Source: a virus | Direction: 5' to 3' (one strand) | DNA length: 56,840 nucleotides | IMG/VR virus record: IMGVR_UViG_3300037189_011039 | Coordinates: 1-56,840 of that record | Shown here: positions 28,734 through 55,513 of the stretch, one piece after another | How the letters are laid out: each line of letters opens with the position of its first letter | Numbering within the stretch: position 1 is the stretch's first letter | Notes under the pieces: model-generated | Databases searched by the model: none | Told to the model about the DNA's origin: nothing | The model's input: only the letters and a program-made list of their open reading frames with translations | Program-made: the position numbers and the translations under genes

Positions 28734-29109
28734 TGCTGATTGGTGGGCGCAAAAACTAGGGAATCAACCTAGCACGCCTAATCGTGCACCAGTGAGTGCA
28801 CCTATTTCGGCACCTTCTCAGATGCCAATGGCGCAGATGCCTGTGTTTCAACAAACCCAGCAAACGCCAACTAAGGCACAGAGTGCTAACCAGCACGCTA
28901 CGTGTCCTGACTGTGGGTCTGGCAACTACTTTTCTGCATCGCCTCAAACGCAACAGCGTTGCTATGACTGTGGGTATCCCGTACAACAATCAGGCTCACG
29001 TTACGGTTCGCTCACTGGTGCAAACGTTCAAGGAGCTGCTAAACCTGCTATGGGAAACGATGCTACTAACAACTACAACCCGACAACAATCATTGGAAAA
29101 GTTGGATAA
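28726..29109 (+). CDS. Disordered protein with central zinc ribbon
   Basis: 127 residues. Residues 1-55 are Pro/Gln/Ala-rich and likely unfolded, then CPDC (about 60-63) and CYDC (about 79-82) form a zinc ribbon, then a Gly/Asn tail ending 'NNYNPTTIIGKVG'. Coupled on both sides (overlap with 28605 gene; TAATG with the recombinase). Similar proteins sit beside RecA-like genes in other actinophages, as far as I recall. Confidence 0.55.
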   Translation: MSNADWWAQKLGNQPSTPNRAPVSAPISAPSQMPMAQMPVFQQTQQTPTKAQSANQHATCPDCGSGNYFSASPQTQQRCYDCGYPVQQSGSRYGSLTGANVQGAAKPAMGNDATNNYNPTTIIGKVG

Positions 29110-31260: not shown

Positions 31261-31599
31261 TTGCTTCAACAACTACTAAACGGTGATTACAGCTGGCATA
31301 ACCTTGCTGCCTGTGATGGTATAGACAATCCAGATATTTTCTATCCACCAAGAGATAAGAATCTTTACAGAGTTATTGCCGATGAGGCAAAAAGCTATTG
31401 TTTTGGTTTTGATGATGTGCCACCGTGCCCAGTTAGAGCTCAATGTCTATGGGAGGCTGTAAGCTCTAAAGAAGCACATGGTATTTGGGGCGGTCTTTCC
31501 CATAGAGAAAGAAACGCACTTGTGCGGAAGTGGCAAAGAGAGTATAAAAGAAGCATGACGCTGAAAGAATACATTTTCAGTATCAATGAAAGGGAATAA
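31261..31599 (+). CDS. WhiB-family Fe-S regulator (unusual Cys spacing)
   Basis: 112 residues from TTG 31261. C18, C47, C56, C62 and the G-[IV]-W-G-G turn (HGIWGGLSHRERN) identify WhiB. Normal WhiB proteins have C-x2-C-x5-C for the last three; here the middle gap is C47-x8-C56. WhiB proteins bind a 4Fe-4S cluster and sigma factor and are restricted to Actinobacteria and their phages, so this is strong host evidence. The start is uncertain because no ATG is available. Confidence 0.88.
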   Translation: MLQQLLNGDYSWHNLAACDGIDNPDIFYPPRDKNLYRVIADEAKSYCFGFDDVPPCPVRAQCLWEAVSSKEAHGIWGGLSHRERNALVRKWQREYKRSMTLKEYIFSINERE

Positions 31600-31600
31600 G

Positions 31601-32461
31601 ATGGCTACGAAGATTTCTAGTGAAGAACTAAAAAGGTTCTTAGAAGCAAAGAAATACCCAACTCGTTTAATCGGTGACTTAGAGCGCCATTTAATGCAGC
31701 GCCCTAAAGGTGACCGCCGTACAGACGTGCTTCACCCATCAGAGATTATTAAACCTAACTGGTGTAAGCGTGGTTCGTTCTTTCTCCTAAAGGGTTACCC
31801 AAAGGTGGCTGCTAACCCTACCTTACGTCTTCAAGTAATTTTTGACGAAGGTCACTACATTCACGCCAAGTGGCAACGTTGGTTCCAAGAAATGGGAATC
31901 ATTCACGGTAAGTTTAAGTGCGATGTTTGTGATTCAGTCACTTGGGGAACTTCACCTCAAGAGTGCGAGGTTTGCCAAGCACCTTGGTCAAAGCTAGTCT
32001 ACGATGAAGTAACTTTGATTGATGATGACCTGCACATCGCTGGTCACACCGATGGTTGGGTCAAGGATGCTCAGGGCGATGCCCTCATTGAGATTAAGTC
32101 CATTGGTCCAGGAACTATCCGTGCTATGGCACCACAGCTAATGTCAGATGCTGATGGTGACTTCATGAAGGCTTGGGGTCAAGTTCGCCGTCCTTTTGGT
32201 GAGCACATTTTGCAAGGACAGATTTACCTAGAGCTAATGCGCCGAATGGGTAACCCAGTTGAACAAATTGTTTTCCTGTATGAGCTAAAAGCTGACAACT
32301 CATTCAAAGAGTTTGTTGTAGGTCGTGACTATGAATTAGTACGCCACGTATTTGAGGCTGCAGAAGTATTGGCAACACAGCTAGAGGCTGATGCTGCTCC
32401 AAAGTGTAACATTAGTGCATCAGGAAGCTGTGACCAGTGCAAGGCATATAAGGAGCTCTAA
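31601..32461 (+). CDS. Cas4/RecB-like PD-(D/E)XK exonuclease
   Basis: 286 residues from ATG 31601 (AAAGGGA six bases ahead); an in-frame ATG at 31586 overlaps the WhiB gene. Catalytic residues: 'AGHTDGWV' (D151) and 'LIEIKSI' (E164, K166). C55 with C269, C277 and C280 form the Cas4-type 4Fe-4S set. An extra zinc ribbon (C107, C110, C122, C125) is inserted before the nuclease core. Likely a recombination or DNA end-processing nuclease; there is no CRISPR array nearby. Confidence 0.85.
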   Translation: MATKISSEELKRFLEAKKYPTRLIGDLERHLMQRPKGDRRTDVLHPSEIIKPNWCKRGSFFLLKGYPKVAANPTLRLQVIFDEGHYIHAKWQRWFQEMGIIHGKFKCDVCDSVTWGTSPQECEVCQAPWSKLVYDEVTLIDDDLHIAGHTDGWVKDAQGDALIEIKSIGPGTIRAMAPQLMSDADGDFMKAWGQVRRPFGEHILQGQIYLELMRRMGNPVEQIVFLYELKADNSFKEFVVGRDYELVRHVFEAAEVLATQLEADAAPKCNISASGSCDQCKAYKEL

Positions 32462-32917: not shown

Positions 32918-33474
32918 TGATTATTGGGTTATCAGGATGGGCTCGTGCAGGTAAAGACACTGTTGCTGACCATTTAGAAAAAAACTATGGTTTTACTAAA
33001 CTATCTTTTGCTACACCAATGCGTGATGCATTAGTTGCTCTAGACCCAGTTATTAACATCGCTGGTCAGTATGTTTCGTTAGCTCAAGCTGTACGTTTAA
33101 GTGGTTGGGAAAACCTAAAAAGCATGAGTAATGACATTCGACCACTCATGCAGCGACTTGGAACTGAAGTTGGTCGCAACATGTTTGGGGAAAACTTTTG
33201 GGTTAACTTGGCTATGCAAGAAGCTGAAAAATATGAAAATGTAGTTTTTGCAGATTGCAGATTTAAAAATGAGGCTAATGCTATCAAAGAAGCTGGCGGG
33301 CAACTTTGGAGGGTTATGCGTCCAGGATTTTTAGCAGCCAATGACCACATTTCTGAAAATGACCTAAACTCATATTTATTTGATGAGTATTTAAGTAACT
33401 CAAGTGATTTTAGTGGGTTATACGAACAGGTTAATGAAGTAATGCTGCAAACTGATGCACTAAAATTGTTTTAA
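32917..33474 (+). CDS. Deoxynucleoside monophosphate kinase
   Basis: 185 residues. 'LSGWARAGKDTVADHL' holds the Walker A GWARAGKDT (7-15), and 'VVFADCRFKNEANAI' followed by 'RVMRPG' is the T4 gp1-type pattern for dNMP kinases, which convert dNMPs to dNDPs for phage DNA synthesis. TAATG couplings on both sides. Confidence 0.82.
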   Translation: MIIGLSGWARAGKDTVADHLEKNYGFTKLSFATPMRDALVALDPVINIAGQYVSLAQAVRLSGWENLKSMSNDIRPLMQRLGTEVGRNMFGENFWVNLAMQEAEKYENVVFADCRFKNEANAIKEAGGQLWRVMRPGFLAANDHISENDLNSYLFDEYLSNSSDFSGLYEQVNEVMLQTDALKLF

Positions 33475-34064
33475 TGTCTGAAAAAACTTTTGATGGTGGG
33501 TTAGTCCCAGGTAAACCAGTCGCTATTGGCATTGACCAATCACTGACTGGTTTTGCCGTATCTGCTATAAACATTCTAGAGCCAACACACCATGAGACTT
33601 GGGTTTATAAATCAGAGTACAGGGGTGTCAGTAGGTTAGCTGATATTGGTAACTGGCTAATCGATAAGTTAGAGTTTTTAAAAGAAAACGGCAATGACAT
33701 TTTTGACATCGCTATGGAAGGCACAGTTCTAGCTAGTCAATCAGCACTAGTTCTCGGAGAACTTGCTGCAACTGTAAAATTATTTTTGTTTGATTACTTT
33801 AGCAATGATGTTAACCAACAACTTAGAACTCCATTACAAATTCCGCCAATGACTTTAAAAAAGTATGCTGCAGGCAAAGGTAACGCTAAAAAACAAGAGA
33901 TGCTTATGCAAATCTACAAGCGGTATGGCGTTGAGTTTAACGACGATAATGCTGCTGATGCCTACGCTCTAGCCAGATTAGCTGGCGAATGCCAAATAGA
34001 TTCAATAGAAAAGCAAGTAATTGCTCAAGTAAAAGACCCTAAATATAGGGATAAACTTTATTAA
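33474..34064 (+). CDS. RuvC-like Holliday junction resolvase
   Basis: 196 residues. RNase H-fold acidic residues: D21 in AIGIDQSLTG, E82 in AMEGTV, and D158/D162 in DDNAADAYALA. 'KKYAAGKGNAKKQEM' is the RuvC-type substrate-loop Lys motif. Resolves recombination intermediates before packaging. Confidence 0.87.
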   Translation: MSEKTFDGGLVPGKPVAIGIDQSLTGFAVSAINILEPTHHETWVYKSEYRGVSRLADIGNWLIDKLEFLKENGNDIFDIAMEGTVLASQSALVLGELAATVKLFLFDYFSNDVNQQLRTPLQIPPMTLKKYAAGKGNAKKQEMLMQIYKRYGVEFNDDNAADAYALARLAGECQIDSIEKQVIAQVKDPKYRDKLY

Positions 34065-45071: not shown

Positions 45072-45338
45072 TTAGTTTCGCTTAGGCATCCTTTGAATCC
45101 TGCGCTTTAGGAGGTAGCGTTCACGCTCCGTAGTTCCTCCCCAGATACCTTGCTCGTTATTCTTTAGGGCTATTTGGAGGCATGAAGTCTTTACCATGCA
45201 TTTACCGCAAAGTTTTTTGGCTTCGTGTTCCTGCTCTCGCAATACCTTTGTTGGTTCACCTTCAGGGTAGAACAGGTTACCGTCAATCTTTTCAATGGAA
45301 CAAGTCCCATGCTCACTTAGAAATGCATACTCATCCAT
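45072..45338 (-). CDS. WhiB-family Fe-S regulator
   Basis: 88 residues with canonical C13, C44-x2-C47-x5-C53 and GIWGGTTERERYLL, followed by a basic tail RRIQRMPKR for DNA contact. It is the last gene of the long minus-strand operon. Together with the 31261 gene it gives two WhiB proteins in one phage. ATG directly follows the upstream stop (TAAATG). Confidence 0.93.
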   Translation of the reverse strand: MDEYAFLSEHGTCSIEKIDGNLFYPEGEPTKVLREQEHEAKKLCGKCMVKTSCLQIALKNNEQGIWGGTTERERYLLKRRIQRMPKRN

Positions 45339-45515
45339 TTAGTTATCTTCTTCTAGTTGTCCGTAAGTGTAAATCTGTTTGTGTAGTTCGCCATGTAGTT
45401 TGCTCACTTCATTGCTGGCTTTCCATTTTTGTTCTTGAACATAAAGAGTCTCGGCTTGCTTGAATGCTGAAAACAAAATGGCTACTTGATGTTCAGTAAG
45501 TTCCACTTCAATCAT
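45339..45515 (-). CDS. Small helical unknown protein
   Basis: 58 residues, entirely helical-looking ('ILFSAFKQAETLYVQEQKWKASNEVSKLHGEL'), ends EEDN. Overlaps the gene upstream by one base and abuts WhiB. Confidence 0.6.
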   Translation of the reverse strand: MIEVELTEHQVAILFSAFKQAETLYVQEQKWKASNEVSKLHGELHKQIYTYGQLEEDN

Positions 45516-45703
45516 TAGGCTTTACCAATCACTTCGTTGTTATACCAATCAATGACGAATGACTTTAGAAACTCTTCCATGTCTTTCCATTCTTCTTTGA
45601 TGGCTTTCCATTGCTTTTCTTTTGATTCGATTTCTTTGCGGTCATCGCCCATGTAAGCGCAGTGCAACTCGGAAAATGCTTTTCTAGCTTTTGCTACATC
45701 CAT
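45515..45703 (-). CDS. Small charged helical unknown protein
   Basis: 62 residues from ATG 45703, preceded by AAGGG. An earlier in-frame ATG at 45763 would add 20 residues but overlaps the HicA-like gene. Rich in Lys and Glu ('KEIESKEKQWKAIKEEWKDMEEF'), likely coiled coil. It sits directly after the HicA-like gene but does not resemble a HicB antitoxin. Confidence 0.5.
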   Translation of the reverse strand: MDVAKARKAFSELHCAYMGDDRKEIESKEKQWKAIKEEWKDMEEFLKSFVIDWYNNEVIGKA

Positions 45704-45713
45704 GTCTTTACCC

Positions 45714-45947
45714 TTATCTTCTTGGTCTTCTTGATTGTTGGCGTTCAATCTCAATGAACCCATACTTCTTCAAATCTCTCTTTATGTTTTTGAACGCTCT
45801 GTGGTCTGATGGTGTGGAGGCGGAAAAGAAGAACCCACCCAAAGGAGATACCCATTTGTAATGACCTTTGTTTGTTGCAGTCACTAGCCAGCCCTGCTTC
45901 TCGGCTAACTTTATAATCTGTCCCAGTTCTTTATTTACTACGGTCAA
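45714..45947 (-). CDS. HicA-like mRNA-interferase fold protein
   Basis: 77 residues from TTG 45947 (AAGGGA upstream). 'AEKQGWLVTATNKGHYKWVSP..GGFFFSASTPSDHRAFKNIKRDLKKYG' is the dsRBD-like HicA fold; H29 sits where the catalytic His is. No HicB partner is adjacent, so it is an orphan. Such orphans are frequent in actinophages and may act on host mRNA or only bind RNA. Confidence 0.68.
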   Translation of the reverse strand: MTVVNKELGQIIKLAEKQGWLVTATNKGHYKWVSPLGGFFFSASTPSDHRAFKNIKRDLKKYGFIEIERQQSRRPRR

Positions 45948-46080
45948 TGAGTTCCCTTATCTTTTTTTGCACCTTTGGCTTTTGGAAGTAGCGCCAGTTA
46001 TTCACTAACCAACGCCACTCCTTCCGCCAGTCAATAGGTTTAGTCTCAGCCCTATGCTTACTTGTCTTTTGTGTCTTCAT
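45931..46080 (-). CDS. Small basic Trp-rich unknown protein
   Basis: 49 residues with five Trp ('DWRKEWRWLVNNWRYFQKP') and net positive charge. ATG 46080 lies inside the end of the XRE gene and the 3' end overlaps the HicA-like start, so it is tightly coupled. Amphipathic helix likely. Function unknown. Confidence 0.5.
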   Translation of the reverse strand: MKTQKTSKHRAETKPIDWRKEWRWLVNNWRYFQKPKVQKKIRELIDRSK

Positions 46081-46294
46081 CCAACTCACGAGCGACCTCC
46101 TTCAACAGATACGAAGGCGTGACCTCCAGTGCTTCGGAAATAGTCTCCAACATAGAGATAGACGGCTCACGCACACCATGCTCAATGGTGCTCAGATGCC
46201 CCTTGGAGACCATCGGCTCTAACTGGCGCATGGTCATGCCCTGCTGTTGTCGGATACGCTTCACAGCGTTGCCTACTGCATACTTCAACTTCAT
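46058..46294 (-). CDS. XRE/Cro-type transcriptional regulator
   Basis: 78 residues. HTH: 'VGNAVKRIRQQQGMTMRQLEPMVSKGHLSTIEHGVREPSISMLETISEALEVTPSYLL' is a full XRE domain. It could regulate the minus-strand operon or the divergent promoters at the right end. ATG overlaps the upstream stop (ATGA). Confidence 0.88.
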   Translation of the reverse strand: MKLKYAVGNAVKRIRQQQGMTMRQLEPMVSKGHLSTIEHGVREPSISMLETISEALEVTPSYLLKEVARELDEDTKDK

Positions 46295-46488
46295 GCTTGC
46301 TTATCCTTTCTAGGTTTCTTTTTGAAATCAGGTATTAGTTTGCTGGGTGTATACGGCTCAATCTTTCGGGCTTCATTCACGCACTGTTTGTGCAGATGAT
46401 TGCCACCGACTGTTTCTTTTAGAGGGTTACGGGTGGTGTTTGTTTTGCTACCACAAAGGAAGCAATGAACTTCTGAATAACTACTCAT
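46291..46488 (-). CDS. Zinc-knuckle unknown protein
   Basis: 65 residues. C9-x2-C12 and H31-x-x-x-C36 ('HLHKQCVNEA') form a Treble-clef-like zinc site; the C-terminus is basic. Overlaps both neighbours. Confidence 0.58.
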   Translation of the reverse strand: MSSYSEVHCFLCGSKTNTTRNPLKETVGGNHLHKQCVNEARKIEPYTPSKLIPDFKKKPRKDKQA

Positions 46489-46684
46489 CTGTTGCCTCTA
46501 AGTCTTCTTTCATGCCAGCGATTAGCAGGTTGAGTAGAACACGAGATGGAACTAAGTTGGCGTGTTCTTGCTTACTCATACGAGTCAGCATTTCAATAGT
46601 GTCCTGTATGTGTTGTTTGTATCCTTCTGCATACGAATGCAGGTCAGTAACGCCATCGGCGTGTAGTTGTGCCATCTTGCTCAT
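46481..46684 (-). CDS. Small helical unknown protein
   Basis: 67 residues, helical ('YAEGYKQHIQDTIEMLTRMSKQEHANLVPSRVLLNLLIAGM'). No Cys. Overlaps neighbours on both sides (ATGA and an 8-base overlap). Confidence 0.55.
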   Translation of the reverse strand: MSKMAQLHADGVTDLHSYAEGYKQHIQDTIEMLTRMSKQEHANLVPSRVLLNLLIAGMKEDLEATDE

Positions 46685-46839
46685 TTTGTGCCCTTCTTGC
46701 TAATGAATAGAACTAGGAATGCGATGATGCCCAAGGTAAAGTTTACAGTAGGTAAACCTCCACCCAGAACACCCATGAATGCACTGAAAGCGATTGCTGA
46801 ACCAATGCATTGAACCAAAAACCTTACATGGTCATTCAT
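46681..46839 (-). CDS. Two-span small membrane protein
   Basis: 52 residues with hydrophobic segments at about 7-24 and 33-46 separated by a Gly-rich turn, and a basic C-terminus KKGTK. Start has AGATAAGTAAGCATG junction. Role unknown; small membrane proteins in early phage operons often alter the host envelope or block superinfection. Confidence 0.6.
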   Translation of the reverse strand: MNDHVRFLVQCIGSAIAFSAFMGVLGGGLPTVNFTLGIIAFLVLFISKKGTK

Positions 46840-46841
46840 GC

Positions 46842-46967
46842 TTACTTATCTTTCTTATGACAGTTGCACTGGCACAGGATGGTCTTATCAAAAGATGCAA
46901 ATGATTCTTTACATAGTTTGTGATGACCATCCATGCACCAGCCGAAGTTACCACTCCCGCTCGCCAT
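46842..46967 (-). CDS. Cys/His-rich mini-protein
   Basis: 41 residues: 'FGWCMDGHHKLC' then 'ILCQCNCHKK'. The pattern C-x-D-G-x-H...C...C-x-C-x-C-H recurs in small actinophage proteins and suggests one or two zinc sites. Overlaps the upstream gene by 20 bases. Confidence 0.58.
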   Translation of the reverse strand: MASGSGNFGWCMDGHHKLCKESFASFDKTILCQCNCHKKDK

Positions 46968-47337
46968 ACGCATCCGTGTCGAGCGTGTATGAGTCCAAGG
47001 GAGGTAACTTATCTAGTTTGGCTTTGACCGTATTTGGTAGGGTTTGGCATAGTTCTAGGAAATAATCTAGAGTCACGAAGAAGTCATCTCCCCATTCGCT
47101 CTCAGGGAAGTCAGGTGCAATGGCACGGGTCTCTTCCAAGGTCAGCGTGAATGCATTGAGATACAGCCTGAAAGTCCTCCCTAGACTAGTCCCATCATCC
47201 ACTCCAACATAGACAGAGGGCTGAATGGTATAAACATTCGACCATTGGTTTACGCCGTTATGGTCACGCCCAAGGTCTTGGTAAAAGACATTGAGGTCAT
47301 ACTCAACAACTTCGGCTTGCTCTTTGGTGTAAATCAT
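46948..47337 (-). CDS. Unknown acidic protein
   Basis: 129 residues, acidic, mixed fold ('VYTIQPSVYVGVDDGTSLGRTFRLYL'). No family. The start overlaps the upstream stop (TAATG) behind GGAGATAAC. Confidence 0.55.
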   Translation of the reverse strand: MIYTKEQAEVVEYDLNVFYQDLGRDHNGVNQWSNVYTIQPSVYVGVDDGTSLGRTFRLYLNAFTLTLEETRAIAPDFPESEWGDDFFVTLDYFLELCQTLPNTVKAKLDKLPPLDSYTLDTDAYGEREW

Positions 47338-47519
47338 TAGTTATCTCCTTCCAAGGGCTCGGCATTGAATGACTCATTACGCCAGTAAGCATCGGATGCG
47401 ATGCCACCGCCGTTCTCAAGTTCTGCCTTGCCAATGATTAGTGCTTCGTCTTCGTTACGAGCAATCACCACCACTTTGTGCGGTGTGCTCAGGTGTGCTG
47501 TTACTTCAAATGCTGGCAT
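47337..47519 (-). CDS. Small beta-rich unknown protein
   Basis: 60 residues: 'FEVTAHLSTPHKVVVIARNEDEALIIGKAEL', a beta-alpha-beta hint resembling the short DpnD/PcfM-style or related phage beta-grasp proteins, but not assignable. Ends EGDN, within the repeated junction. Confidence 0.52.
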   Translation of the reverse strand: MPAFEVTAHLSTPHKVVVIARNEDEALIIGKAELENGGGIASDAYWRNESFNAEPLEGDN

Positions 47520-47521
47520 GA

Positions 47522-47698
47522 TTAGTTAGTCTCCTTCTTTGGTTCATACGCATTGCCACAGTCTTCGCAACCACAGCAGTTCTGGCAATACTCTGGATAG
47601 TCGTAACACTTGAAAACATCCATGACCCATTCGCCATCTGATGTCCACTTAGTTCCGCAATCTTCACAGATTGAGTCTGGGTTCAGTATTTCATTCAT
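47522..47698 (-). CDS. Multi-Cys zinc-binding protein
   Basis: 58 residues with nine Cys: C11-x2-C14 and a dense C-terminal set (CYDYPEYCQNCCGCEDCG). Probably two zinc sites. Acidic. Unknown role. Confidence 0.58.
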   Translation of the reverse strand: MNEILNPDSICEDCGTKWTSDGEWVMDVFKCYDYPEYCQNCCGCEDCGNAYEPKKETN

Positions 47699-47700
47699 GG

Positions 47701-48027
47701 TTAGTTATCTACTTCTGCATCGGTAGATACCGTGATGCAAATGTGGTTGCTCATGTCTTCCATCTCTGGCTCACGAGCGACTTCGCACACTAGGTAACCG
47801 ATGCGGTTCACTAGGTGGTAGCCAGCACACAGGGCTGTCCCTGAGTCGGTGTCGGTGTAAGTCCAAACATTCTCGTTTGGCTGTGCCATGACGAACTCTA
47901 GTTCAGCCCCGTAGGTTTCGAATAGAACGCCTACGCCGTGCTCATCCTGCCATGAGGCATTCTTACTAAGGTGATTAGGCATTGGTCGAAACTCGGTCTC
48001 CCAATCTTCAAGGGTGTAGTCCTTCAT
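47701..48027 (-). CDS. Unknown acidic protein
   Basis: 108 residues, acidic, with 'YTDTDSGTALCAGYHLVNRIGYLV' central part. Ends EVDN. Found downstream of the 48787-48816 promoter. No family recognised. Confidence 0.55.
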   Translation of the reverse strand: MKDYTLEDWETEFRPMPNHLSKNASWQDEHGVGVLFETYGAELEFVMAQPNENVWTYTDTDSGTALCAGYHLVNRIGYLVCEVAREPEMEDMSNHICITVSTDAEVDN

Positions 48028-48257
48028 TAGTTATCCCGTTCTTGTTCTTCGAATACGATGTCTCCGAGCCATCCAAAGGTTTCGGAAGTAATCTCATCTG
48101 CCCAGAAGCGTGTCTCGGCTCGTTCCATTACTTGCTTGCTTGGCAGGTTGCCTTCATCATCTTCGAAGTCCACTGCTAGGAAGAACTGACCAATGACTAC
48201 TTCTTCAGGGTCATACTTCTGTAAGCGCTCAATAACTTCTTTGACTGTTGTTGCCAT
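48027..48257 (-). CDS. Small acidic protein (VKEVIERLQKYDPEEVV type)
   Basis: 76 residues. The opening 'TVKEVIERLQKYDPEEVVIGQFF' is a pattern seen in several phage and plasmid small proteins. Roughly a quarter of residues are Asp/Glu, giving a DNA-mimic-like charge. Function unknown. Confidence 0.58.
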   Translation of the reverse strand: MATTVKEVIERLQKYDPEEVVIGQFFLAVDFEDDEGNLPSKQVMERAETRFWADEITSETFGWLGDIVFEEQERDN

Positions 48258-48259
48258 GA

Positions 48260-48364
48260 TTAGTTATCCTTTCTTACACAGTCACATGGACTTACGGTAA
48301 CGGTGTTGTTGGTGATGGTGATAGTGCCTTGGGTGTTGCACTGTGGGCAGGTGAAGGACTGCAT
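48260..48364 (-). CDS. 34-residue zinc-ribbon mini-protein
   Basis: CPQC (6-9) and CDC (27-29), Thr-rich between. A start that shares a base with the upstream stop (TAATG) and an exact AGGATAACTAATCATG junction downstream support it as real. Confidence 0.52.
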   Translation of the reverse strand: MQSFTCPQCNTQGTITITNNTVTVSPCDCVRKDN

Positions 48365-48762
48365 TAGCCCTCCAACCCTTCAGGCTTACGCTTGTTGTGG
48401 ATGTCCAATACATCTTGCTCGTCAGGGTCACCATCGTTCGTTAGTTTTTCGAACCAGCGGTTCTGGAGCGAGCCCCACTTGCTGGTGTCAAAGATGGCAA
48501 CTTCGCCGTCTCCCCATGAGCCGTCATCGGCTATCCATAGAGCATCCAACAGGAAGTAATCCTGCGAGCCCTTTAGGCGAGTGATGAGAGCCGTTACGCT
48601 TTGCAACTGCTCCTGAGCGGTTGGGTGGTGGAAGCCATCGTTGCTTGGTGACTGGCTTTCAAGGTATGGGGTGATGGCGTGCACGGTGTGCGTGTGTAGT
48701 GCTGATGTTAGAAGAGTTAGTTCTTCTGGGGTGAAGGTGAAGGTGGTTTTGATGTTTGACAT
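48364..48762 (-). CDS. Unknown protein with DDGSWGDGEV motif
   Basis: 132 residues. First gene behind a TTGACA/TAAAGT promoter, start after AGAAAGGAA. C-terminal half contains 'WIADDGSWGDGEVAIFD', matching 'WVTNDGSYGHGAVITFA' in the 49255 gene; the two seem to be paralogues. Two clustered His pairs (HTHTVH) at the N-terminal half. Function unknown. Confidence 0.55.
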   Translation of the reverse strand: MSNIKTTFTFTPEELTLLTSALHTHTVHAITPYLESQSPSNDGFHHPTAQEQLQSVTALITRLKGSQDYFLLDALWIADDGSWGDGEVAIFDTSKWGSLQNRWFEKLTNDGDPDEQDVLDIHNKRKPEGLEG

Positions 48763-48786
48763 GGTGTGTGTTCCTTTCTAGTAAAC

Positions 48787-48816
48787 ACTTTAGTGGTAAA
48801 TAAATAGTGATGTCAA
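48787..48816 (-). promoter_or_regulatory. Sigma-70-type promoter, minus strand
   Basis: On the minus strand: TTGACA (48816-48811), 18-base spacer, TAAAGT (48792-48787), then GTTTACTAGAAAGGAACACA and ATG at 48762. The same leader follows the promoter at 51289-51318. Drives the downstream half of the minus-strand arm. Confidence 0.85.
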
Positions 48817-48824
48817 GAACTTTT

Positions 48825-49058
48825 TTAGCGTGTCGCATTTGGCTCGGCTACGCCTGTGAGGCATACCAGAGTCTCATGCTGGCGGTTGAACTTTGGGGCT
48901 AGTTTGTATCCACCAGACTGCTCCAAAGCATGGATGGCTTCTTCAAGCCACTTCGTCTGAGTCAAACTATCCAAAGAGTCATAGGGCTCAAAGTCTGTGG
49001 CGTGATGGATACCTGCGTGCTCACGCAAGAACCGTAGGGCTGTGACTAATAAACTCAT
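48825..49058 (-). CDS. Unknown small helical protein
   Basis: 77 residues, 'LVTALRFLREHAGIHHATDFEPYDSL..QTKWLEEAIHALEQSGG'. No family. The gene end lies just upstream of a promoter. Confidence 0.52.
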   Translation of the reverse strand: MSLLVTALRFLREHAGIHHATDFEPYDSLDSLTQTKWLEEAIHALEQSGGYKLAPKFNRQHETLVCLTGVAEPNATR

Positions 49059-49252
49059 TCCACATCCTTGTTGTCATAGCCACACTCTTCGCAGGTGTAG
49101 TGCTCACCGTTGGCGATTGGTGCTGGAAACTGCACGGTGCAAAAGTCACAGCCATACTGGATGGGGTAGCAGTCTTTGCAACCATCTGCTCCGCATCCGT
49201 AACGGCTCTGCTTGGCTTGAAGGTCAGCGACCTGCTCGGTTGTAAGTGGCAT
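49055..49252 (-). CDS. Cys-rich zinc-ribbon protein
   Basis: 65 residues, eight Cys ('CGADGCKDCYPIQYGCDFC' and 'YTCEECG'). Probably two zinc ribbons. Exact AGGATAACTAATCATG-type junction follows its start region. Unknown role. Confidence 0.58.
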   Translation of the reverse strand: MPLTTEQVADLQAKQSRYGCGADGCKDCYPIQYGCDFCTVQFPAPIANGEHYTCEECGYDNKDVE

Positions 49253-49254
49253 GA

Positions 49255-49464
49255 TTAGTTATCCTCGCTGTCTTCCCACTCATCGGTTGACTCACCGTTG
49301 AGTATTGCCTGAAGGTAAGCAAACTTATCTTTGTCAAGTAGGTCTTCGTAGACCTCACGCTGATGGTCTGACAGGTCATCTGGGGCAAAGGTGATTACTG
49401 CACCGTGCCCATACGAGCCGTCATTGGTTACCCAGTCGGTGCGATACTTTAGTTCTACTGCCAT
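49255..49464 (-). CDS. Acidic protein with NDGSYGHG motif
   Basis: 69 residues, 'DWVTNDGSYGHGAVITFAPDDLSDHQREVYEDLL' then an acidic tail. Paralogue of the C-terminal half of the 48364 product. Ends SEDN in the repeated junction. Function unknown. Confidence 0.55.
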   Translation of the reverse strand: MAVELKYRTDWVTNDGSYGHGAVITFAPDDLSDHQREVYEDLLDKDKFAYLQAILNGESTDEWEDSEDN

Positions 49465-49466
49465 GA

Positions 49467-49586
49467 TTAGTTACCTTCTCCATCTTCTCCGTATGATGCT
49501 ACGGTCTCTTCGATTGCGTCAATAACGCTTGCCCAAGTGTGGTCATCCCAACTGTCTAGTCGGGTGATGGTGTATGTCTCTTCCAT
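49467..49586 (-). CDS. 39-residue acidic mini-protein
   Basis: Strongly acidic ('DSWDDHTWASVIDAIEETVASYGEDGEGN') with only one Arg. Start behind AGGATAACTAACCATG. Function unknown. Confidence 0.5.
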   Translation of the reverse strand: MEETYTITRLDSWDDHTWASVIDAIEETVASYGEDGEGN

Positions 49587-49588
49587 GG

Positions 49589-49882
49589 TTAGTTATCCTC
49601 TTCTTCATCGGCTTCATAGTTGCTATCTAGTGGGTCAGTCTCCCAGCCCTCGGCGCTCCACTTGTTCAACTCTCGGCGCATTGCGCTTACTGAGCCAGAC
49701 ATTGAAACATACAGGTCATACTCGGCGTGTGAATAGTTGTAGTAAGACTCACCTGTCGCTCCGTTTCCGTCTGCGCTATACATCCAGACACTAAACTTCA
49801 GGTCAAAGTTTACGCTTGCTCGCTCTCGCTCTTCGAGAGTCTTGATTAGTTCCAGCAGGGCTGGGTTTACATTGATAATCAT
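49589..49882 (-). CDS. Unknown acidic protein
   Basis: 97 residues; 'LLELIKTLEERERASVNFDLKF' helix then Tyr/Ser-rich 'YYNYSHAEYDLYVSMSGS' and an acidic tail EADEEEDN. No family. Confidence 0.52.
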   Translation of the reverse strand: MIINVNPALLELIKTLEERERASVNFDLKFSVWMYSADGNGATGESYYNYSHAEYDLYVSMSGSVSAMRRELNKWSAEGWETDPLDSNYEADEEEDN

Positions 49883-50004
49883 TAGTTATCCTCTTCTTCA
49901 TGAGTGAAGTATGCGTGTGAACAGGTCACGCACATACCCAACTCTTCTTTGTGAATGTCGGTGTCAATCGGTGTTCCGCAAACATCGCAAGGTGTGGTGC
50001 TCAT
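49882..50004 (-). CDS. 40-residue zinc-ribbon protein
   Basis: C6-x2-C9 and C25-x2-C28 form a compact zinc ribbon, tail EEEDN. Overlaps the next gene by one base and starts behind AGGATAAGTAAACATG. Confidence 0.58.
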   Translation of the reverse strand: MSTTPCDVCGTPIDTDIHKEELGMCVTCSHAYFTHEEEDN

Positions 50005-50006
50005 GT

Positions 50007-50267
50007 TTACTTATCCTTGCTGTCTAGAATGTCTAGTGCAAACTGCTTGAACGAAACAAAGTTCGATTCAATCTCGCTCACTAGGAACTCTGTCCATTGG
50101 TCTTCGAATGGTTGCCACACCATGATGTCTGGGTGCGATGGGTAGCCATCCTTATCGGCTTCTAGGCTCTCCAATACCTGCTCGTAGGTTAGGTCTCCCC
50201 AGCCCGCTAGAACGAAGCCGAGAGCCTTCTGCTGGCACTTGGCGATTACTTCTGGCGATAGTTCCAT
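50007..50267 (-). CDS. Unknown acidic helical protein
   Basis: 86 residues from ATG 50267 (GAAGGGG upstream); a GTG at 50276 overlaps the upstream gene. 'PEVIAKCQQKALGFVLAGWGDLTYEQVLESL' helices. Ends SKDK. Confidence 0.52.
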   Translation of the reverse strand: MELSPEVIAKCQQKALGFVLAGWGDLTYEQVLESLEADKDGYPSHPDIMVWQPFEDQWTEFLVSEIESNFVSFKQFALDILDSKDK

Positions 50268-50269
50268 GG

Positions 50270-50494
50270 CTACCACCCCTTCTTCTTTGGTAGATTCAGG
50301 TCAATCTCCATCTGGAGGAACGCCTGCTGGGCTTGGGTGTGTTGCTCCATAAGTTCGATTACCTTATTAGCCTGCTCATCGGTGGCAAACGCCATGAGGA
50401 AGCCTGACAGGACTGCATACGAGAGCGTAGGGTTGTGGTTGACTTGCTCAAGGGCATTGCGTGCCTCGATGAGTCTGGCGTAGTTGTTCTGCAT
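50270..50494 (-). CDS. Unknown helical protein
   Basis: 74 residues: 'RLIEARNALEQVNHNPTLSYAVLSGFLMAFATDEQANKVIELMEQHTQAQQAFLQMEI', an all-alpha protein. Exact AGGATAACTAATCATG before its start. Confidence 0.52.
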   Translation of the reverse strand: MQNNYARLIEARNALEQVNHNPTLSYAVLSGFLMAFATDEQANKVIELMEQHTQAQQAFLQMEIDLNLPKKKGW

Positions 50495-50496
50495 GA

Positions 50497-50643
50497 TTAG
50501 TTATCCTTTTCTACTTCGATTACTTCGACCCATGCACGCATGGTTCGCATGGTGGATGCCAAACGCTCGGCATCCTTCTTGCTGGTGAATACTGGGGCTG
50601 GCTTATCTGAATACCAGTCCCACTTGCTGATGGTGTATAGCAT
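50497..50643 (-). CDS. Small unknown protein
   Basis: 48 residues, N-terminal 'LYTISKWDWYSDKPAPVFTSKKDAERLASTM' suggests a small beta-alpha fold. Start behind AGGATAAATAGTCATG; ends EKDN. Confidence 0.5.
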   Translation of the reverse strand: MLYTISKWDWYSDKPAPVFTSKKDAERLASTMRTMRAWVEVIEVEKDN

Positions 50644-50645
50644 GA

Positions 50646-51266
50646 CTATTTATCCTTTTCTACTTCGATGTATCCGTTATCTAGGGCGATGGCTTTGACT
50701 TCGGTTTCGGTCAGGTCGATGATGAGGTTGCCCCCAACGCTGTCTGTGATGTCCCATGTCTCCATGGTGCGCCCATCTGGGGCTGTCCAGACCGTCTTGG
50801 TCTGGTTGTGGATGATGTAAACATTCCCGTTGACCCACGCCTCTGCCTCTTCGGCAACGCTGGCTAGGGCTGGCTGGTCGTTGCCAACTTCCTTCAGGTA
50901 ATCAGATGTCTCTTTGTCTGCGTATACAACGACTTGAAAACGCTCTCCCTGACTGCTCCCTACTAGGTAGGTGACTTTGGCTACCAGTCCAGCGAGACTG
51001 AAATACAGTTCGACTGCACGCTTGCGTAATGACTGATAGTTCTGTTCGTGATTGTAGTAGTGGAACGCATCGACCAGTCGGTGGATGTTGGCTCGGTGTT
51101 CATCTTCGTTGCCGAAGCGGTTATACTCACGGGTGTTCTCTAGTGACTGAATAGCCCAGCCTTCACCTATTAGTTCGGAAAACCCGTAGTGGTGTTCGTC
51201 ATAACTGACCAACAGGCGCTGGTCTTCGCTGATGCTGTAGTTCTCTACTTCTAAAAAGTATGTCAT
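50646..51266 (-). CDS. Unknown 206-residue protein, first gene of a promoter unit
   Basis: ATG 51266 follows AGAAGGGAAC; an upstream ATG at 51299 would lie between -10 and -35 of the promoter and is rejected. Contains 'YLVGSSQGERFQVVVYAD' and a Glu/Asp-rich rest. It is among the larger unknowns of the arm and, like the 48364 product, is first behind the shared promoter/leader. No family recognised. Confidence 0.55.
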   Translation of the reverse strand: MTYFLEVENYSISEDQRLLVSYDEHHYGFSELIGEGWAIQSLENTREYNRFGNEDEHRANIHRLVDAFHYYNHEQNYQSLRKRAVELYFSLAGLVAKVTYLVGSSQGERFQVVVYADKETSDYLKEVGNDQPALASVAEEAEAWVNGNVYIIHNQTKTVWTAPDGRTMETWDITDSVGGNLIIDLTETEVKAIALDNGYIEVEKDK

Positions 51267-51288
51267 GCTGTGTTCCCTTCTAGTAAAC

Positions 51289-51318
51289 ATTCTAGTCATG
51301 GTTTGCCACGCTAGTCAA
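51289..51318 (-). promoter_or_regulatory. Sigma-70-type promoter, minus strand (second copy)
   Basis: On the minus strand: TTGACT (51318-51313), 18-base spacer, TAGAAT (51294-51289), then GTTTACTAGAAGGGAACACA and ATG at 51266. Same spacer and leader as 48787-48816, differing at one leader base. Confidence 0.82.
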
Positions 51319-51349
51319 TAGTTTGTTTCGGTGTGTCGGTGGGTGGTTC

Positions 51350-51369
51350 AAGGAGGGCTTGCCCTCCTT
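51350..51369 (-). terminator. GC-rich hairpin (copy 1), probable terminator
   Basis: AAGGAGGGC-TT-GCCCTCCTT, 9 bp stem, placed between the 51380 gene end and the 51289 promoter. On the minus strand it is followed by GAACCACCCACC. No T-run; actinobacterial terminators often lack one. Confidence 0.6.
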
Positions 51370-51379
51370 CATGTGATGC

Positions 51380-51553
51380 TTAGTTATTCTTCTTTGCTTT
51401 GGTTGGTAGGTTCAGGAGCAGGAGCGCTACAAAGAACGCTCCTGCCATGGTGAATGACTTGCTGGGGTCGTTGCCGTTGCTGATAGCACCGAAGCCAGAG
51501 GTGATGCCTAATAGGCTGAATAGGCTTGAGCCAGCCTTGAGCACTTGCTTCAT
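51380..51553 (-). CDS. Two-span small membrane protein
   Basis: 57 residues; hydrophobic stretches at about 10-25 and 37-49 ('AGAFFVALLLLNLP'), basic end KAKKNN. Last gene before a hairpin and promoter. Holin-like size but no further support. Confidence 0.58.
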   Translation of the reverse strand: MKQVLKAGSSLFSLLGITSGFGAISNGNDPSKSFTMAGAFFVALLLLNLPTKAKKNN

Positions 51554-51555
51554 GG

Positions 51556-51765
51556 CTACCGAGCCCGTAGTTCTGCTAGACGGCGTTCACGCAGGGCTTT
51601 GCTGATTCCAGACTCCCACACAACCTCCTTGGTGCTGATGCCCTGCCCAGACTCCTCGCATCGGTCAAAGTGAGCGTGCAGGTGGGTGAGGTGCGATACC
51701 AGTTCATCGGTGGTCTGACTGGTGAGCCAGTCTTGGAAGGTGGCGTGCTTGGTGGTGTCCCACAT
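51556..51765 (-). CDS. Small unknown protein
   Basis: 69 residues: 'TFQDWLTSQTTDELVSHLTHLHAHFDRCEESG' then 'VVWESGISKALRERRLAELRAR', which could be a helix-turn-helix-like pair but not assignable. AGGATAACTAACCATG at its start. Confidence 0.5.
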   Translation of the reverse strand: MWDTTKHATFQDWLTSQTTDELVSHLTHLHAHFDRCEESGQGISTKEVVWESGISKALRERRLAELRAR

Positions 51766-51767
51766 GG

Positions 51768-52019
51768 TTAGTTATCCTGTTCTGCATGGGTGAAGCGTGG
51801 GTCGAGTAGGTGGGGAGCGAAGCAACTTAGGATGGTTGCTATCTCGCTGATACGGGTGAAGCGTGGGTCGCTGTCTGGGTAGTCACTTGAGCCGTTCAAG
51901 CCTTCGGCTTCTATGGCATCCATGAGCGCCGAACACTCTTTGGCTAGTTTGTCATAGTTGCTGAGGTCATCGAGCGAGAGGGTTTCAGGCTCGAAGGTAA
52001 AGGTCTCTCGGTTGGTCAT
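51768..52019 (-). CDS. Acidic unknown protein
   Basis: 83 residues, acidic, 'LSLDDLSNYDKLAKECSALMDAIEAEGLNGSSDYPDSDPRF'. Ends EQDN. No family. Confidence 0.52.
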   Translation of the reverse strand: MTNRETFTFEPETLSLDDLSNYDKLAKECSALMDAIEAEGLNGSSDYPDSDPRFTRISEIATILSCFAPHLLDPRFTHAEQDN

Positions 52020-52037
52020 GGTTACTTATCCTGTTCT

Positions 52038-52280
52038 TTATCGGTTGCCAAAGGCAAAGGTGATGAGTAGTTCGGCGGTGTCGGTCTTGATGCCCGACTG
52101 AGATGCAAACTGCTGGACTACGATGTCGAAGTCCTTCAGAGCCTTCAGGTAGTTCTGCCTGTTGACGATGAGGCTCAGGGCTTCATCGAGGCTGGCTATC
52201 CCATCGTTCAACAACGGGATGAAGGTCGCTGGCAGGGACTGGAGCAGGGCGCTCAGGTTCTGGTCGGTGATGGCAGTCAT
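52038..52280 (-). CDS. Unknown helical protein
   Basis: 80 residues, 'LSALLQSLPATFIPLLNDGIASLDEALSLIVNRQNYLKALKDFDIVVQQFA', mostly helix. Ends 18 bases before the next gene. No family. Confidence 0.52.
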   Translation of the reverse strand: MTAITDQNLSALLQSLPATFIPLLNDGIASLDEALSLIVNRQNYLKALKDFDIVVQQFASQSGIKTDTAELLITFAFGNR

Positions 52281-52291
52281 GTCTGTTTGTC

Positions 52292-52444
52292 CTAACTGAC
52301 TGCCGTTGCTGGGGTGCGTGGCTCGAAGTAAATCTTGGTGTCGAAGTCACACACGGTGCAGGTCTCGTAAGTCTGCAACTTATCGATGGCTTGCACCATG
52401 TAGTTGGTTGCGCCATGGCGCTGGCAGTATGGGCAGAGGTTCAT
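52292..52444 (-). CDS. Zinc-ribbon protein
   Basis: 50 residues: CPYC (4-7) and CTVC (29-32) form a four-Cys ribbon. Start behind AGGATAAACAGACATG. Unknown function. Confidence 0.6.
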   Translation of the reverse strand: MNLCPYCQRHGATNYMVQAIDKLQTYETCTVCDFDTKIYFEPRTPATAVS

Positions 52445-52460
52445 GTCTGTTTATCCTGTT

Positions 52461-52694
52461 CTACTTGAGGCGGTTGACTTTGGTGATGATGGCTTCGAGC
52501 CATTCGGCGGTGATGCCGTGGGTGGCGTATGTGCCTGTGCCAGTCTCGGCTCGATGCTTGGCGGTGTAGTGTGCGTCTCGCAGGTTGCGGACTGCTATCT
52601 CAAGGGCTCGCAGTTCGTTGGCGCTGAACGGTGCGTCTGGGTCAACGGTCTCTCCGATTACTGAAAACTTGATGGTCTTGGCGTAGGTTGCCAT
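52461..52694 (-). CDS. Unknown small protein
   Basis: 77 residues, 'SANELRALEIAVRNLRDAHYTAKHRAETGTGTYATHGITAEWLEAII' suggests helix-loop-helix. Behind AGGATAAATAACCATG. Confidence 0.52.
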   Translation of the reverse strand: MATYAKTIKFSVIGETVDPDAPFSANELRALEIAVRNLRDAHYTAKHRAETGTGTYATHGITAEWLEAIITKVNRLK

Positions 52695-52761
52695 GGTTAT
52701 TTATCCTGTCTTTGTTGGGGTGTGTTTGGTGTGGCACGCTTGCCACGCTTGGGTGGGGTCA

Positions 52762-52783
52762 CAGGGGAGGTTTCCCTCCCCTG
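52762..52783 (-). terminator. GC-rich hairpin (copy 2), probable terminator
   Basis: CAGGGGAGG-TTTC-CCTCCCCTG, 9 bp, just after the DUF932 gene stop (minus strand). Followed on that strand by TGACCCCACCC. Confidence 0.6.
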
Positions 52784-52793
52784 CTCTCTCCCT

Positions 52794-53780
52794 TTAGGCG
52801 AAGGCTACCTGCTTGACGATTGATAGCAGGTCGTTCTTCTTGTTGTTGATGAGAGGGTTGAAGCCAGAGGCATCTGCTAGGAGGGACTCTCCATCGTTGC
52901 CACGGGCTGTGCGATACCAGTCCAACTGCTCTTCTAGGGCGTTGAACGCTCCCCATGCGTTGCCGTTTGCTGGGTCACGCTGGTAGAGGAAGTTCACTAG
53001 GTCTACCTTGGTGTCGTATTTGGCGAACGAGCCCTTCACATCTTCTTCGGGCTTGTTGTAGGCGAGTTCCACGATGGTTTCGAACTGGCGCTGGGTGATG
53101 CTGGTTTCGATGAGGCGCTGGGCTTCGAGGGTGAATGCATCGAGGTAGCGGTCTGCGATGCCGAGGGCTTCACGGGCTGTCTGCAAGCGACCCTGTAGGG
53201 TCTGGGTGTGTCGCACCTTGAAGGTCTGCTTGGCGTTGGCTAGGGCGATGCTGAGGGTGTTCTGGCACACCACACGGACTGGGGTTATGGCGATGTTGAT
53301 ACTGGATGAGCCATCGTGTGAGGAACTGACCAGCAGATAGTTGTTTATCCTGTCAGACAGCCCGTTGGGGTCGAGCACGGTCTCACGGTCTAGGGCTAGT
53401 GACCCGAAGACCTTCGTGCCGTGTGCGATTGACCCTGCGGTCTCCCAGCGCCCTCCGTCTAGGAGGAAGTCTCCGAAGTCGAACAGTTCTTCGTTCTGGA
53501 GGACTTTGTAGCGTGCTCCGACCACGCCTAGAACATCGTTCTGGTCTGGGTCGACTGGGTTGGTTCTGACGGTGCTGAAATACTGCTTGTGGCTCTGGTA
53601 GCCCTCTGGGAAGGTGACTTCTTCGAGGCGCACATTCCAGTTGCTCAGGAGGCTGGCATCCAGCATCTGCTGGGTGTTCAACTCGCCTTCGAAGACTGTG
53701 CCGAGTCCGTGCCATGCTGGCTCGGTGCGGGATGCAAAGGTGCTCTGACCGTTTGCGAAGGTTTCGATGTTTGCGACCAT
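52794..53780 (-). CDS. DUF932 (phage/plasmid-like TIGR03299 type) protein
   Basis: 328 residues. The N-terminal 'AWHGLGTVFEGELNTQQMLDASLLSNWNV', 'YKVLQNEELFDFGDFLLDGGRWETAG' and 'TPVRVVCQNTLSIALANA' are the defining blocks of DUF932. These proteins are widespread on plasmids and phages; function is not established. Marked GC-rich codon use compared with the left half of the window. AGGATAAAGAACCATG at the start. Confidence 0.9.
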   Translation of the reverse strand: MVANIETFANGQSTFASRTEPAWHGLGTVFEGELNTQQMLDASLLSNWNVRLEEVTFPEGYQSHKQYFSTVRTNPVDPDQNDVLGVVGARYKVLQNEELFDFGDFLLDGGRWETAGSIAHGTKVFGSLALDRETVLDPNGLSDRINNYLLVSSSHDGSSSINIAITPVRVVCQNTLSIALANAKQTFKVRHTQTLQGRLQTAREALGIADRYLDAFTLEAQRLIETSITQRQFETIVELAYNKPEEDVKGSFAKYDTKVDLVNFLYQRDPANGNAWGAFNALEEQLDWYRTARGNDGESLLADASGFNPLINNKKNDLLSIVKQVAFA

Positions 53781-53814
53781 GGTTCTTTATCCTTTTTTTG
53801 ATTGGGTGGGGTTT

Positions 53815-53853: not shown

Positions 53854-54351
53854 TTACTTCTTGGTGATGGTGTAGTAGATGCGAGTCTCTGGGGCTTTGG
53901 TGTTGTCCCAGAAGTTGCGGACTTCTTCGGTGTGGGTTTGGAGGGTGAGGGTGTCGCTGTTGATGAGCGAGGCGAGGGTTTGGTTGTAGCGCTGGGTATA
54001 GCGCTCCTGCGCCTCTGCGGTCATGCGGTCATTGCTCCAGTTGTTCACGGTGATGCGGTATGAGCCGTCTGCTTCTGGCTCGTGTCCTAAGTTCACATCT
54101 CGCTTGGAGTAGTAGGAGTCGCTCTGTGTGGTGACGCTGATGCCGTGGCGTTTCAGGGTGGCGATGAGGCTGATGCGCTTGCCGTTCTCGGCTCGCCTCT
54201 TGGCTTGGCGTTCTTCCTGCTTGCGCTCGTATTCTCTGCGCCATGCTTGGTTTTCACGGTCAAGGATGGCTTGGTCGATGAGGCGTTGCACCTGTGGGAT
54301 GGTGTAGCCCTTGAGGTCTAGTTCGGTGGTGGTTTCGATGGTGGTGGTCAT
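53854..54351 (-). CDS. Unknown charged protein
   Basis: 165 residues. Central Arg/Glu-rich helix ('RREYERKQEERQAKRRAENGKRISLIATLKRHGISV') then 'YRITVNNWSNDRMTAEAQERY'. It is likely to contain a coiled coil followed by a small beta domain. No family; ATG behind AGGACAAACAGTCATG. Confidence 0.55.
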   Translation of the reverse strand: MTTTIETTTELDLKGYTIPQVQRLIDQAILDRENQAWRREYERKQEERQAKRRAENGKRISLIATLKRHGISVTTQSDSYYSKRDVNLGHEPEADGSYRITVNNWSNDRMTAEAQERYTQRYNQTLASLINSDTLTLQTHTEEVRNFWDNTKAPETRIYYTITKK

Positions 54352-54393
54352 GACTGTTTGTCCTGTTCTTGATTGTTGGCTTTGGGTGGGTTT

Positions 54394-54425: not shown

Positions 54426-54587
54426 TTAGTCTTCGTCTTCTTCGAAGCATGGGGAGCAGTAATACGAGATTCTGCCGTAGTTGATGCGGTTGGCTTTGCC
54501 TGAGATGTAGTTGCCACATCCAGAGCAGATTTTGATGTGCTCGGTGTCGGTGCATTCGTAGTCGCACTCTTGGGCGCATGTTGCCAT
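54426..54587 (-). CDS. Cys-rich zinc-binding protein
   Basis: 53 residues: C4, C8, C12, C21-x2-C24, C44-x2-C47, giving a zinc ribbon plus further Cys. Ends EEDED. Start behind AGGACAAGCAAACATG. Confidence 0.58.
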   Translation of the reverse strand: MATCAQECDYECTDTEHIKICSGCGNYISGKANRINYGRISYYCSPCFEEDED

Positions 54588-54629
54588 GTTTGCTTGTCCT
54601 AACTGTGATGGGTGGATGATGCGTGCCAG

Positions 54630-55178: not shown

Positions 55179-55225
55179 TTTTGTCCTTTGTTCGGCACGC
55201 TGGTGCGTGCTGTGGGTGGGGTGTA

Positions 55226-55245
55226 AGGGGAGGCGTGCCTCCCCT
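55226..55245 (-). terminator. GC-rich hairpin (copy 5)
   Basis: AGGGGAGGC-GT-GCCTCCCCT, 9 bp, followed on the minus strand by TACACCCCACCC. It directly follows the tRNA-like element. Confidence 0.55.
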
Positions 55246-55247
55246 CG

Positions 55248-55358
55248 TGCCGTGTCGAAGATTCGAACTTCGTAGCCTCCGTAGAGGTGTTCCATGAGAG
55301 AGGGAGATAAAGCCCTCTGGCTCTCGTCCATGAACTGGTGTCCATGAACGCCCACGGC
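55248..55358 (-). other. tRNA-like element (T-arm plus acceptor complement), not a standard tRNA
   Basis: On the minus strand a perfect T-arm CGAAG-TTCGAAT-CTTCG lies at 55272-55256, followed by ACACGGC, which pairs six of seven with GCCGTGG at 55358-55352. A long-variable-arm-like CCTC-TACG-GAGG is next to it. The 60 bases between form a long imperfect hairpin around AGAGGG/CCCTCT rather than D and anticodon arms. Total 111 bases, too long and with no clear anticodon. May be a decayed tRNA, one with an insert, or a structured leader. Confidence 0.4.
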
Positions 55359-55504: not shown

Positions 55505-55513
55505 ACTATTTTG

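Follow-up and report, generated by a model that had tools for sequence, protein, structure and literature searches.

In silico analysis of the window, that is the whole 56,840-base IMG/VR virus record IMGVR_UViG_3300037189_011039, revealed a short element repeated at the gene starts of one arm of small genes on the minus strand. With a probability of roughly 0.7, this element is read as a translation junction, start-associated and specific to the phage, in the early small-gene arm of an actinobacterial myovirus, the exchange of genes at the joints probably being a consequence of it. The plus strand encodes a tail sheath, tail tube, baseplate, DnaB-like helicase, primase, DNA polymerase and ribonucleotide reductase, a predicted gene set by which the phage is classed as a myovirus. 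The arm runs on the minus strand from 56648 down to 45072 and comprises about 40 small genes, the last of which encodes a WhiB protein; given the known distribution of this family, its presence points to an actinobacterial host. Hundreds of relatives of the DNA polymerase are present in IMG/VR (top identity 77%), with nothing close among isolated phages, and no near relatives of the window at the DNA level have been found in the phage collection searched.

With up to three mismatches, AGGATAACTAATCATG is matched 18 times, always on the minus strand (46292 to 53793), against 0.47 expected matches and a maximum of two among 100 shuffles. Seventeen of the 18 are adjacent to a start in this single orientation, and the remaining one, at 51375-51390, is located at a gene end with no start after it. 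AGGATAANTAANCATG, with at most two mismatches, is found 19 times on the minus and twice on the plus strand; the equal frequency on the plus strand that would have refuted the initial annotation, made from the letters alone, is thus not observed. A relaxed element, defined as GGAYAA followed by 4-7 nt and ATG, plus overlap forms such as GGATAACTAATG and GATAACTAAATG, is present at 23 of the 40 ATG starts of the arm, which were curated by reading the strand. The initial annotation had described one 16-base junction at over 20 starts within the interval 45336-53793. The number holds for the relaxed element, but the exact 16-mer occurs only three times (five if Y is allowed at T); the interval does contain a strongly repeated, strand-specific element, but copies also extend to 54364 and 54600. 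The description is thereby partly confirmed: the repeated start-associated element is real but looser than first described. It is confined to the minus-strand arm, the plus strand with its tail, baseplate and replication genes being without it.

In its main form the element consists of a Shine-Dalgarno (SD) core at positions -13 to -10, a fixed 9-nt spacer and a stop codon of the upstream gene no more than 2 nt from the ATG. This stop lies inside the element at 15 of the 23 copies, mostly with a gap of +2 and also of -1 and 0, and outside it at the other eight, up to 73-99 nt upstream (starts 54587, 54351, 53780 and 52694). The junction had been claimed to include the upstream stop and to force a -DN or -DK tail on the upstream protein. 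The former is true of most copies but not obligatory, and the latter is seen in 14 of the 40 curated proteins of the arm (plus strand, 1 of 57), although not at all junctions. The conserved unit is the start element, and the stop is absorbed into it where genes abut.

The informative positions are -13 to -7, -4 and -1, with a drop of information at the ATG, while outside the SD core the bases vary (A/C/G at -6, T/C/A/G at -2) and carry little information. Over the 18 nt upstream of the starts, the arm contains 7.5 bits (random ATGs 1.2), compared with 3.7 bits (0.8) for the plus strand genes, referred to below as the core. The computed pairing with the 16S tail, for which the general actinobacterial sequence was used, is -7.3 kcal/mol for the arm and -7.0 kcal/mol for the core. 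Since the two values are nearly equal, the arm sites are more uniform rather than stronger, and the claim of a similarity beyond that of ordinary SD sites is upheld. Less structure is predicted at the start regions than in the arm background (minimum free energy -4.6 versus -7.7 kcal/mol), and core starts behave alike.

The same contrast has been identified in all 13 relatives compared, which were fetched whole or mostly and in which both strands are well represented. Their genes were predicted with a simple home-made caller, whose start choice favours SD sites on both strands alike; the arms show 5.9-10.6 bits upstream of the starts and the core strands 2.2-4.0 bits (random-ATG nulls 0.5-2.5). 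No more than 3.4 bits were obtained for the early arm of the Streptomyces phage Karimac, which has a related DUF932 gene. Each phage possesses its own consensus: AAGGAGAAACAA-ATG in G006, GGAGAACTA in G001, GGACTARYAATC-ATG in G012, and CCTGAGGAGGCAAC-ATG, GAGGAGAACTA and the overlap form GAGGAGAACTAATG in G014. In the last genome (L242-L245, minus strand, about 54,000-70,300) two junction classes are found, intergenic CCTGAGGAGGCAAC-ATG and overlapping GAGGAGAACTAATG; the intergenic class has common upstream blocks of 20-35 nt, which resemble the extended start-associated sequences (ESAS) of cluster K mycobacteriophages. Shared genes need not keep the junction, as the 65-aa gene at 49055-49252, whose family was found only in G012, has AGGATAACTAATCATG in the window and a plain CAATAATG in G012. 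Because the junction differs at shared genes between relatives, it is no fixed recombinase target, and the per-phage junctions could be the outcome of drift plus homogenisation or of co-evolution with a factor. A scan of IMG/VR with the window motif gave single matches per contig, consistent with chance; the G012-type motif was found in G012 and one unrelated contig only; and a DUF932 scan gave 80 loci of other phages, all without the window element. Other freshwater DUF932 phages (L311, L269, L265, L293, L323 and others) contain a different repeat, TGTCAGACCC, in 4-9 copies at a fixed place before ATG triplets, which may be another start- or promoter-linked repeat.

Overlapping alleles are found at the two ends of the G012 contig, with identities of 93% and 99% over two pieces. 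The difference between them is exactly one gene unit of 136 nt, flanked by two 20-bp copies of GAGAGGACTAGTAATCATGG. This is one nucleotide-resolved case, in a relative, of a gene present or absent precisely between direct boundary repeats; the alleles may represent variants in the population, a tandem duplication or, less probably, an artefact of assembly. A further junction-repeat pair of this kind is located at 2015/2547 of G012. In the window, the two longest repeats of all junction pairs (20 bp each) are at adjacent junctions and each flank exactly one gene (permutation p ~0.0002-0.0005 for the adjacency). At least 14 identical bases are shared by 2.9, 2.1, 1.4, 1.2, 1.2 and 0.6% of the junction pairs at separations of 1, 2, 3, 4, 5-10 and more than 10 genes in 14 arms, versus 0.44, 0.15, 0, 0, 0 and 0.01% on the core strands. 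After a common gene (98% protein identity), G006 and G007 diverge at GAGGAAAACTAATG, which supports the G012 case, and homology breaks likewise at junctions or the start codon in G004/G015 and G006/G009. The G012 alleles and the homology breaks agree with the expectation that gene content changes at the junctions. Other comparisons speak against a special role of the junctions: homology between relatives breaks similarly at core-strand gene boundaries, and insertions between ortholog neighbours (A-B versus A-X-B pairs) show no arm excess (9.6% arm, 8.9% core). G014 and G017 are identical where they overlap, hence no contrast in gene content is available from them, and the near-identical contigs G028, G024 and G031 either leave the informative arm part uncovered or show no gene-level indel there. 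No integrase or other site-specific recombinase was detected among the 50 proteins scanned against PHROGs, a subset of those encoded on this incomplete contig. A recombination site kept between relatives, as in integron-like arrays, was not found, the consensus being specific to each phage. The suggestion of a recombination site for cassettes thus survives in part: gene content changes exactly at junctions, but their sequence is not kept in relatives and core boundaries break too. These data support short-homology recombination as a probable by-product of the repetition rather than prove a selected shuffling function.

The proposed explanation is built on the observed repeats, their position and arm specificity, the family-wide parallel, the one allele pair with a gene in or out, and the homology breaks. 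The AAGGA core would pair with the anti-Shine-Dalgarno sequence, and the A/U-rich spacer (TAACTAAYC) would keep the start open in the GC-richer arm. Where genes abut, the spacer would double as the upstream stop, leaving the terminating ribosome at the start of the next gene (gaps of +2, 0 or -1), where we infer that it can reinitiate; the -DN* and -DK* tails of the upstream proteins would be a side effect of the stop within the spacer. As the intergenic copies demonstrate, the element also serves starts without an adjacent stop. Termination-reinitiation coupling requires overlaps or very short gaps (PMC10666635). The junction is within this range, as the TAA overlaps the next ATG or ends two bases ahead of it, with the SD core just behind; a gap of +2, 0 or -1 is found at 15 of 23 copies. 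Since neighbouring genes have up to 14-20 identical bases in common at their joints, whole genes could be added, deleted or swapped there by homologous recombination; the UvsX-like recombinase, exonuclease and RuvC-like resolvase encoded on the plus strand could putatively use the 14-20 bp shared junction, and local exchange would plausibly keep the copies alike.

Several points weigh against this explanation. Eight of the 23 copies have no upstream stop inside, and therefore reinitiation cannot explain all copies. In computed SD pairing the arm hardly exceeds the core genes, thus strength alone fails to explain the homogeneity. The first genes behind the putative promoters (48762 and 51266) lack the element, the decay of junction similarity with distance could be due in part to regional composition or to local duplication, and the arms of the relatives are small samples, called with an SD-favouring tool, though on both strands alike.

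Other explanations have to be weighed against the same data. Selection of the junction as a recombination site, where general or site-specific recombination would move small genes as cassettes from one copy to another, is favoured by the G012 alleles, the two window genes between 20-bp junction repeats, the homology breaks in G006/G007, G004/G015 and G006/G009, and the longer identical stretches shared by neighbouring junctions. Selection for recombination is nevertheless rather unlikely, as the sequence is not kept between relatives, no site-specific recombinase is among the 50 proteins scanned, core boundaries show homology breaks too, ortholog-neighbour insertions are 9.6% in the arm and 8.9% in the core, and position and content are accounted for by translation. 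It is also rather doubtful that the arms of this freshwater actinophage lineage are open-ended arrays of early small genes, with junctions homogenised by recombination inside each genome and selected as interchangeable joints, forming a recombinase-free cassette system with the ribosome-binding junction as its site; were this true, any gene with the local junction could be slotted in with its translation coupling ready-made.

Ordinary strong SD sites combined with compact packing, the repetition being convergence, would agree with the SD core as the most informative part, with the A-rich spacers and overlapping stops usual in dense phage operons, and with copies that differ at three or more positions. 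However, several pairs share exactly 16-20 nt, the element is absent from the core strand, and 7.5 versus 3.7 bits at equal SD pairing has already weakened this explanation, which is considered unlikely. The bases conserved beyond SD pairing, even in intergenic copies that need no stop, and the homogeneity within but difference between phages, as expected from co-evolution with a factor, would suit a binding site of a phage- or host-encoded RNA-binding regulator of the early arm, overlapping the ribosome site. Such a function is highly improbable, given that there is no candidate regulator, that the non-SD part is variable and low in information, and that the consensus of the relatives drifts around a plain SD core and A-rich spacer. 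The copies could also have arisen through tandem duplication of genes with their leaders, and neighbouring junctions are indeed more alike, but conservation falls outside the junction and this origin is extremely improbable. Gene duplication as the cause was rejected, as an all-against-all BLASTP of the arm proteins gave one weak pair (48762/49464, E 0.006).

The coordinates of the copies, the candidate cassettes and the genes of possible relevance to exchange are collected in the table below. Two promoter-like stretches on the minus strand (51266-51320 and 48762-48812) have a common TGTTTACTAGAA before the first gene, and the first genes after them use GGAACACA..CATG, without the junction element. 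Five intergenic G-rich hairpins (minus strand; 55244, 54411, 53837, 52781 and 51367; e.g. GGGGAGGGCAACCGCCCTCCCC) are located ahead of arm genes. Each is followed by a CCCACCC-type tract, without a U-tract, and perhaps acts in RNA processing or attenuation; they are distinct from ESAS and resemble hairpins of G012 (L211, about 9365 and 10880). About 1 kb without evident genes (about 55180-56190, minus strand), with internal repeats, separates a 24-aa membrane-like peptide from the next gene; a tRNA T-arm-like stretch, TTCGAATC, is found near 55270, and an ARAGORN search gave no tRNA. An Rfam scan gave nothing reliable in the arm. On the plus strand, the protein encoded at 40528-42048 matches queuine tRNA-ribosyltransferase (phrog_887, E 5e-58), a possible nucleic-acid modification gene.

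Table. Junction copies, candidate cassettes and recombination genes in the window (HTH, helix-turn-helix)
Feature	Sequence	Position	Strand	Remark
Junction, exact	AGGATAACTAATCATG	48255..48270	-	upstream protein -DN*, next start 48257
Junction, exact	AGGATAACTAATCATG	49250..49265	-	upstream protein -DN*, next start 49252
Junction, exact	AGGATAACTAATCATG	50492..50507	-	upstream protein -DN*, next start 50494
Junction	AGGATAACTAACCATG	49584..49599	-	stop inside, -DN*
Junction	AGGATAACTAACCATG	51763..51778	-	stop inside, -DN*
Junction	AGGATAAGTAAACATG	50002..50017	-	stop inside, -DK*
Junction	AGGATAAATAGTCATG	50641..50656	-	stop TAG inside, -DK*
Overlap form (TAATG)	AGGATAACTAATG	49877..49892	-	-DN*
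Overlap form	GGGATAACTAATG	48022..48037	-	-DN*
Overlap form	GGAGATAACTAATG	47335..47348	-	-DN*
Junction	AAGGTAACTAATCATG	49462..49477	-	-GN*
Junction	TAGATAACTAACCATG	47696..47711	-	-DN*
Junction	AGACTAACTAATCATG	47517..47532	-	-TN*
Junction	AAGATAAGTAAGCATG	46837..46852	-	-DK*
Copy before WhiB gene	GAAGATAACTAAATG	45336..45350	-	-DN*
Copy before HTH gene	AGGATAAGCAAGCATG	46292..46307	-	ATGA overlap with upstream gene, whose stop is not in the TAA
Copy	AGGATAAGTAACCATG	52017..52032	-	upstream stop 18 nt ahead of start
Copy	AGGACAAACAGACATG	52278..52293	-	upstream stop 11 nt ahead of start
Copy	AGGATAAACAGACATG	52442..52457	-	upstream stop 16 nt ahead of start
Intergenic copy	AGGATAAATAACCATG	52692..52707	-	gap 99 nt
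Intergenic copy before DUF932 gene	AGGATAAAGAACCATG	53778..53793	-	gap 73 nt
Intergenic copy	AGGACAAACAGTCATG	54349..54364	-	gap 74 nt
Intergenic copy	AGGACAAGCAAACATG	54585..54600	-	gap 85 nt
Orphan copy	AGAATAACTAAGCATC	51375..51390	-	gene end, no start after it
Candidate cassette, gene 50497-50643	ATCGAAGTAGAAAAGGATAA	50501..50669	-	exact 20-bp repeats at 50650-50669 and 50501-50520
Candidate cassette, gene 49589-49882	ATGAAGAAGAGGATAACTAA	49589..49901	-	exact 20-bp repeats at 49882-49901 and 49589-49608
UvsX-like recombinase gene		29109..30155	+	possible agent of exchange
Exonuclease gene		31586..32461	+	
RuvC-like Holliday junction resolvase gene		33474..34064	+	

The nearest known counterparts of the window element are the start-associated sequences (SAS) of cluster K mycobacteriophages, near-identical one-directional copies at the ribosome-binding sites of non-structural genes, with an SD core and a proposed role in translation initiation (PMC3203893). 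The window element is similarly one-directional, start-linked and over-conserved, contains an SD core with bases kept beyond rRNA pairing, and is limited to non-structural genes, being present in the minus-strand arm only. The cluster K consensus GGGATAGGAGCCC (13 bp) has no window match with up to two mismatches, and the initial annotation was right that the element resembles SAS yet differs in sequence. Cluster K SAS are found mainly at genes with an upstream gap of more than 50 bp, and some contain the stop (PMC3203893); in contrast, 15 of 23 window copies abut the upstream stop. In TM4, none of 11 SAS copies contains the upstream stop and the spacing between SAS and ATG varies. The built-in stop, put forward as a feature setting the element apart, therefore distinguishes it by frequency but not absolutely. 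ESAS are 17-bp inverted repeats upstream of about half of the cluster K SAS (PMC3203893), and none was seen among the listed window repeat families and junction pairs, to which no dedicated search was added. Microbacterium cluster EF phages encode the SAS-like GGGAAAGGACCCC, linked to ESAS in intergenic gaps (PMC7302621). Its consensus has no match in the window, and the two are alike as independent SAS-like sequences with their own consensus at the ribosome-binding site. The window element thus acts like SAS but misses the sequence and upstream-gap features and usually has the stop built in; it is a variant, not a member.

As in gene pairs known for termination-reinitiation (PMC10666635, PMC6728339), stop and start overlap or lie a few nucleotides apart. 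Such pairs, however, are not reported to share one homogeneous sequence, and their main gap is -4/-1 instead of +2. In cluster O phages, a small gene subject to gain or loss is located between direct repeats at gene junctions (17 bp, Corndog gene 14), with a single copy in relatives (PMC4351075), which is the nearest case to the G012 allele pair (20 bp). It has been proposed that short conserved boundary sequences guide phage mosaicism, although at most boundaries they are not identifiable (PMC3029335). Unlike the isolated cluster O cases, the boundary sequence described here recurs at most arm genes and is the ribosome site itself; its likely role in translation can be read from it, every relative possesses a version of its own, and in one allele pair a gene is in or out. 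The link between translation signals and gene shuffling thereby becomes directly testable, and an uncultured group of freshwater myoviruses joins the isolated actinophages in which start-associated sequences are described.

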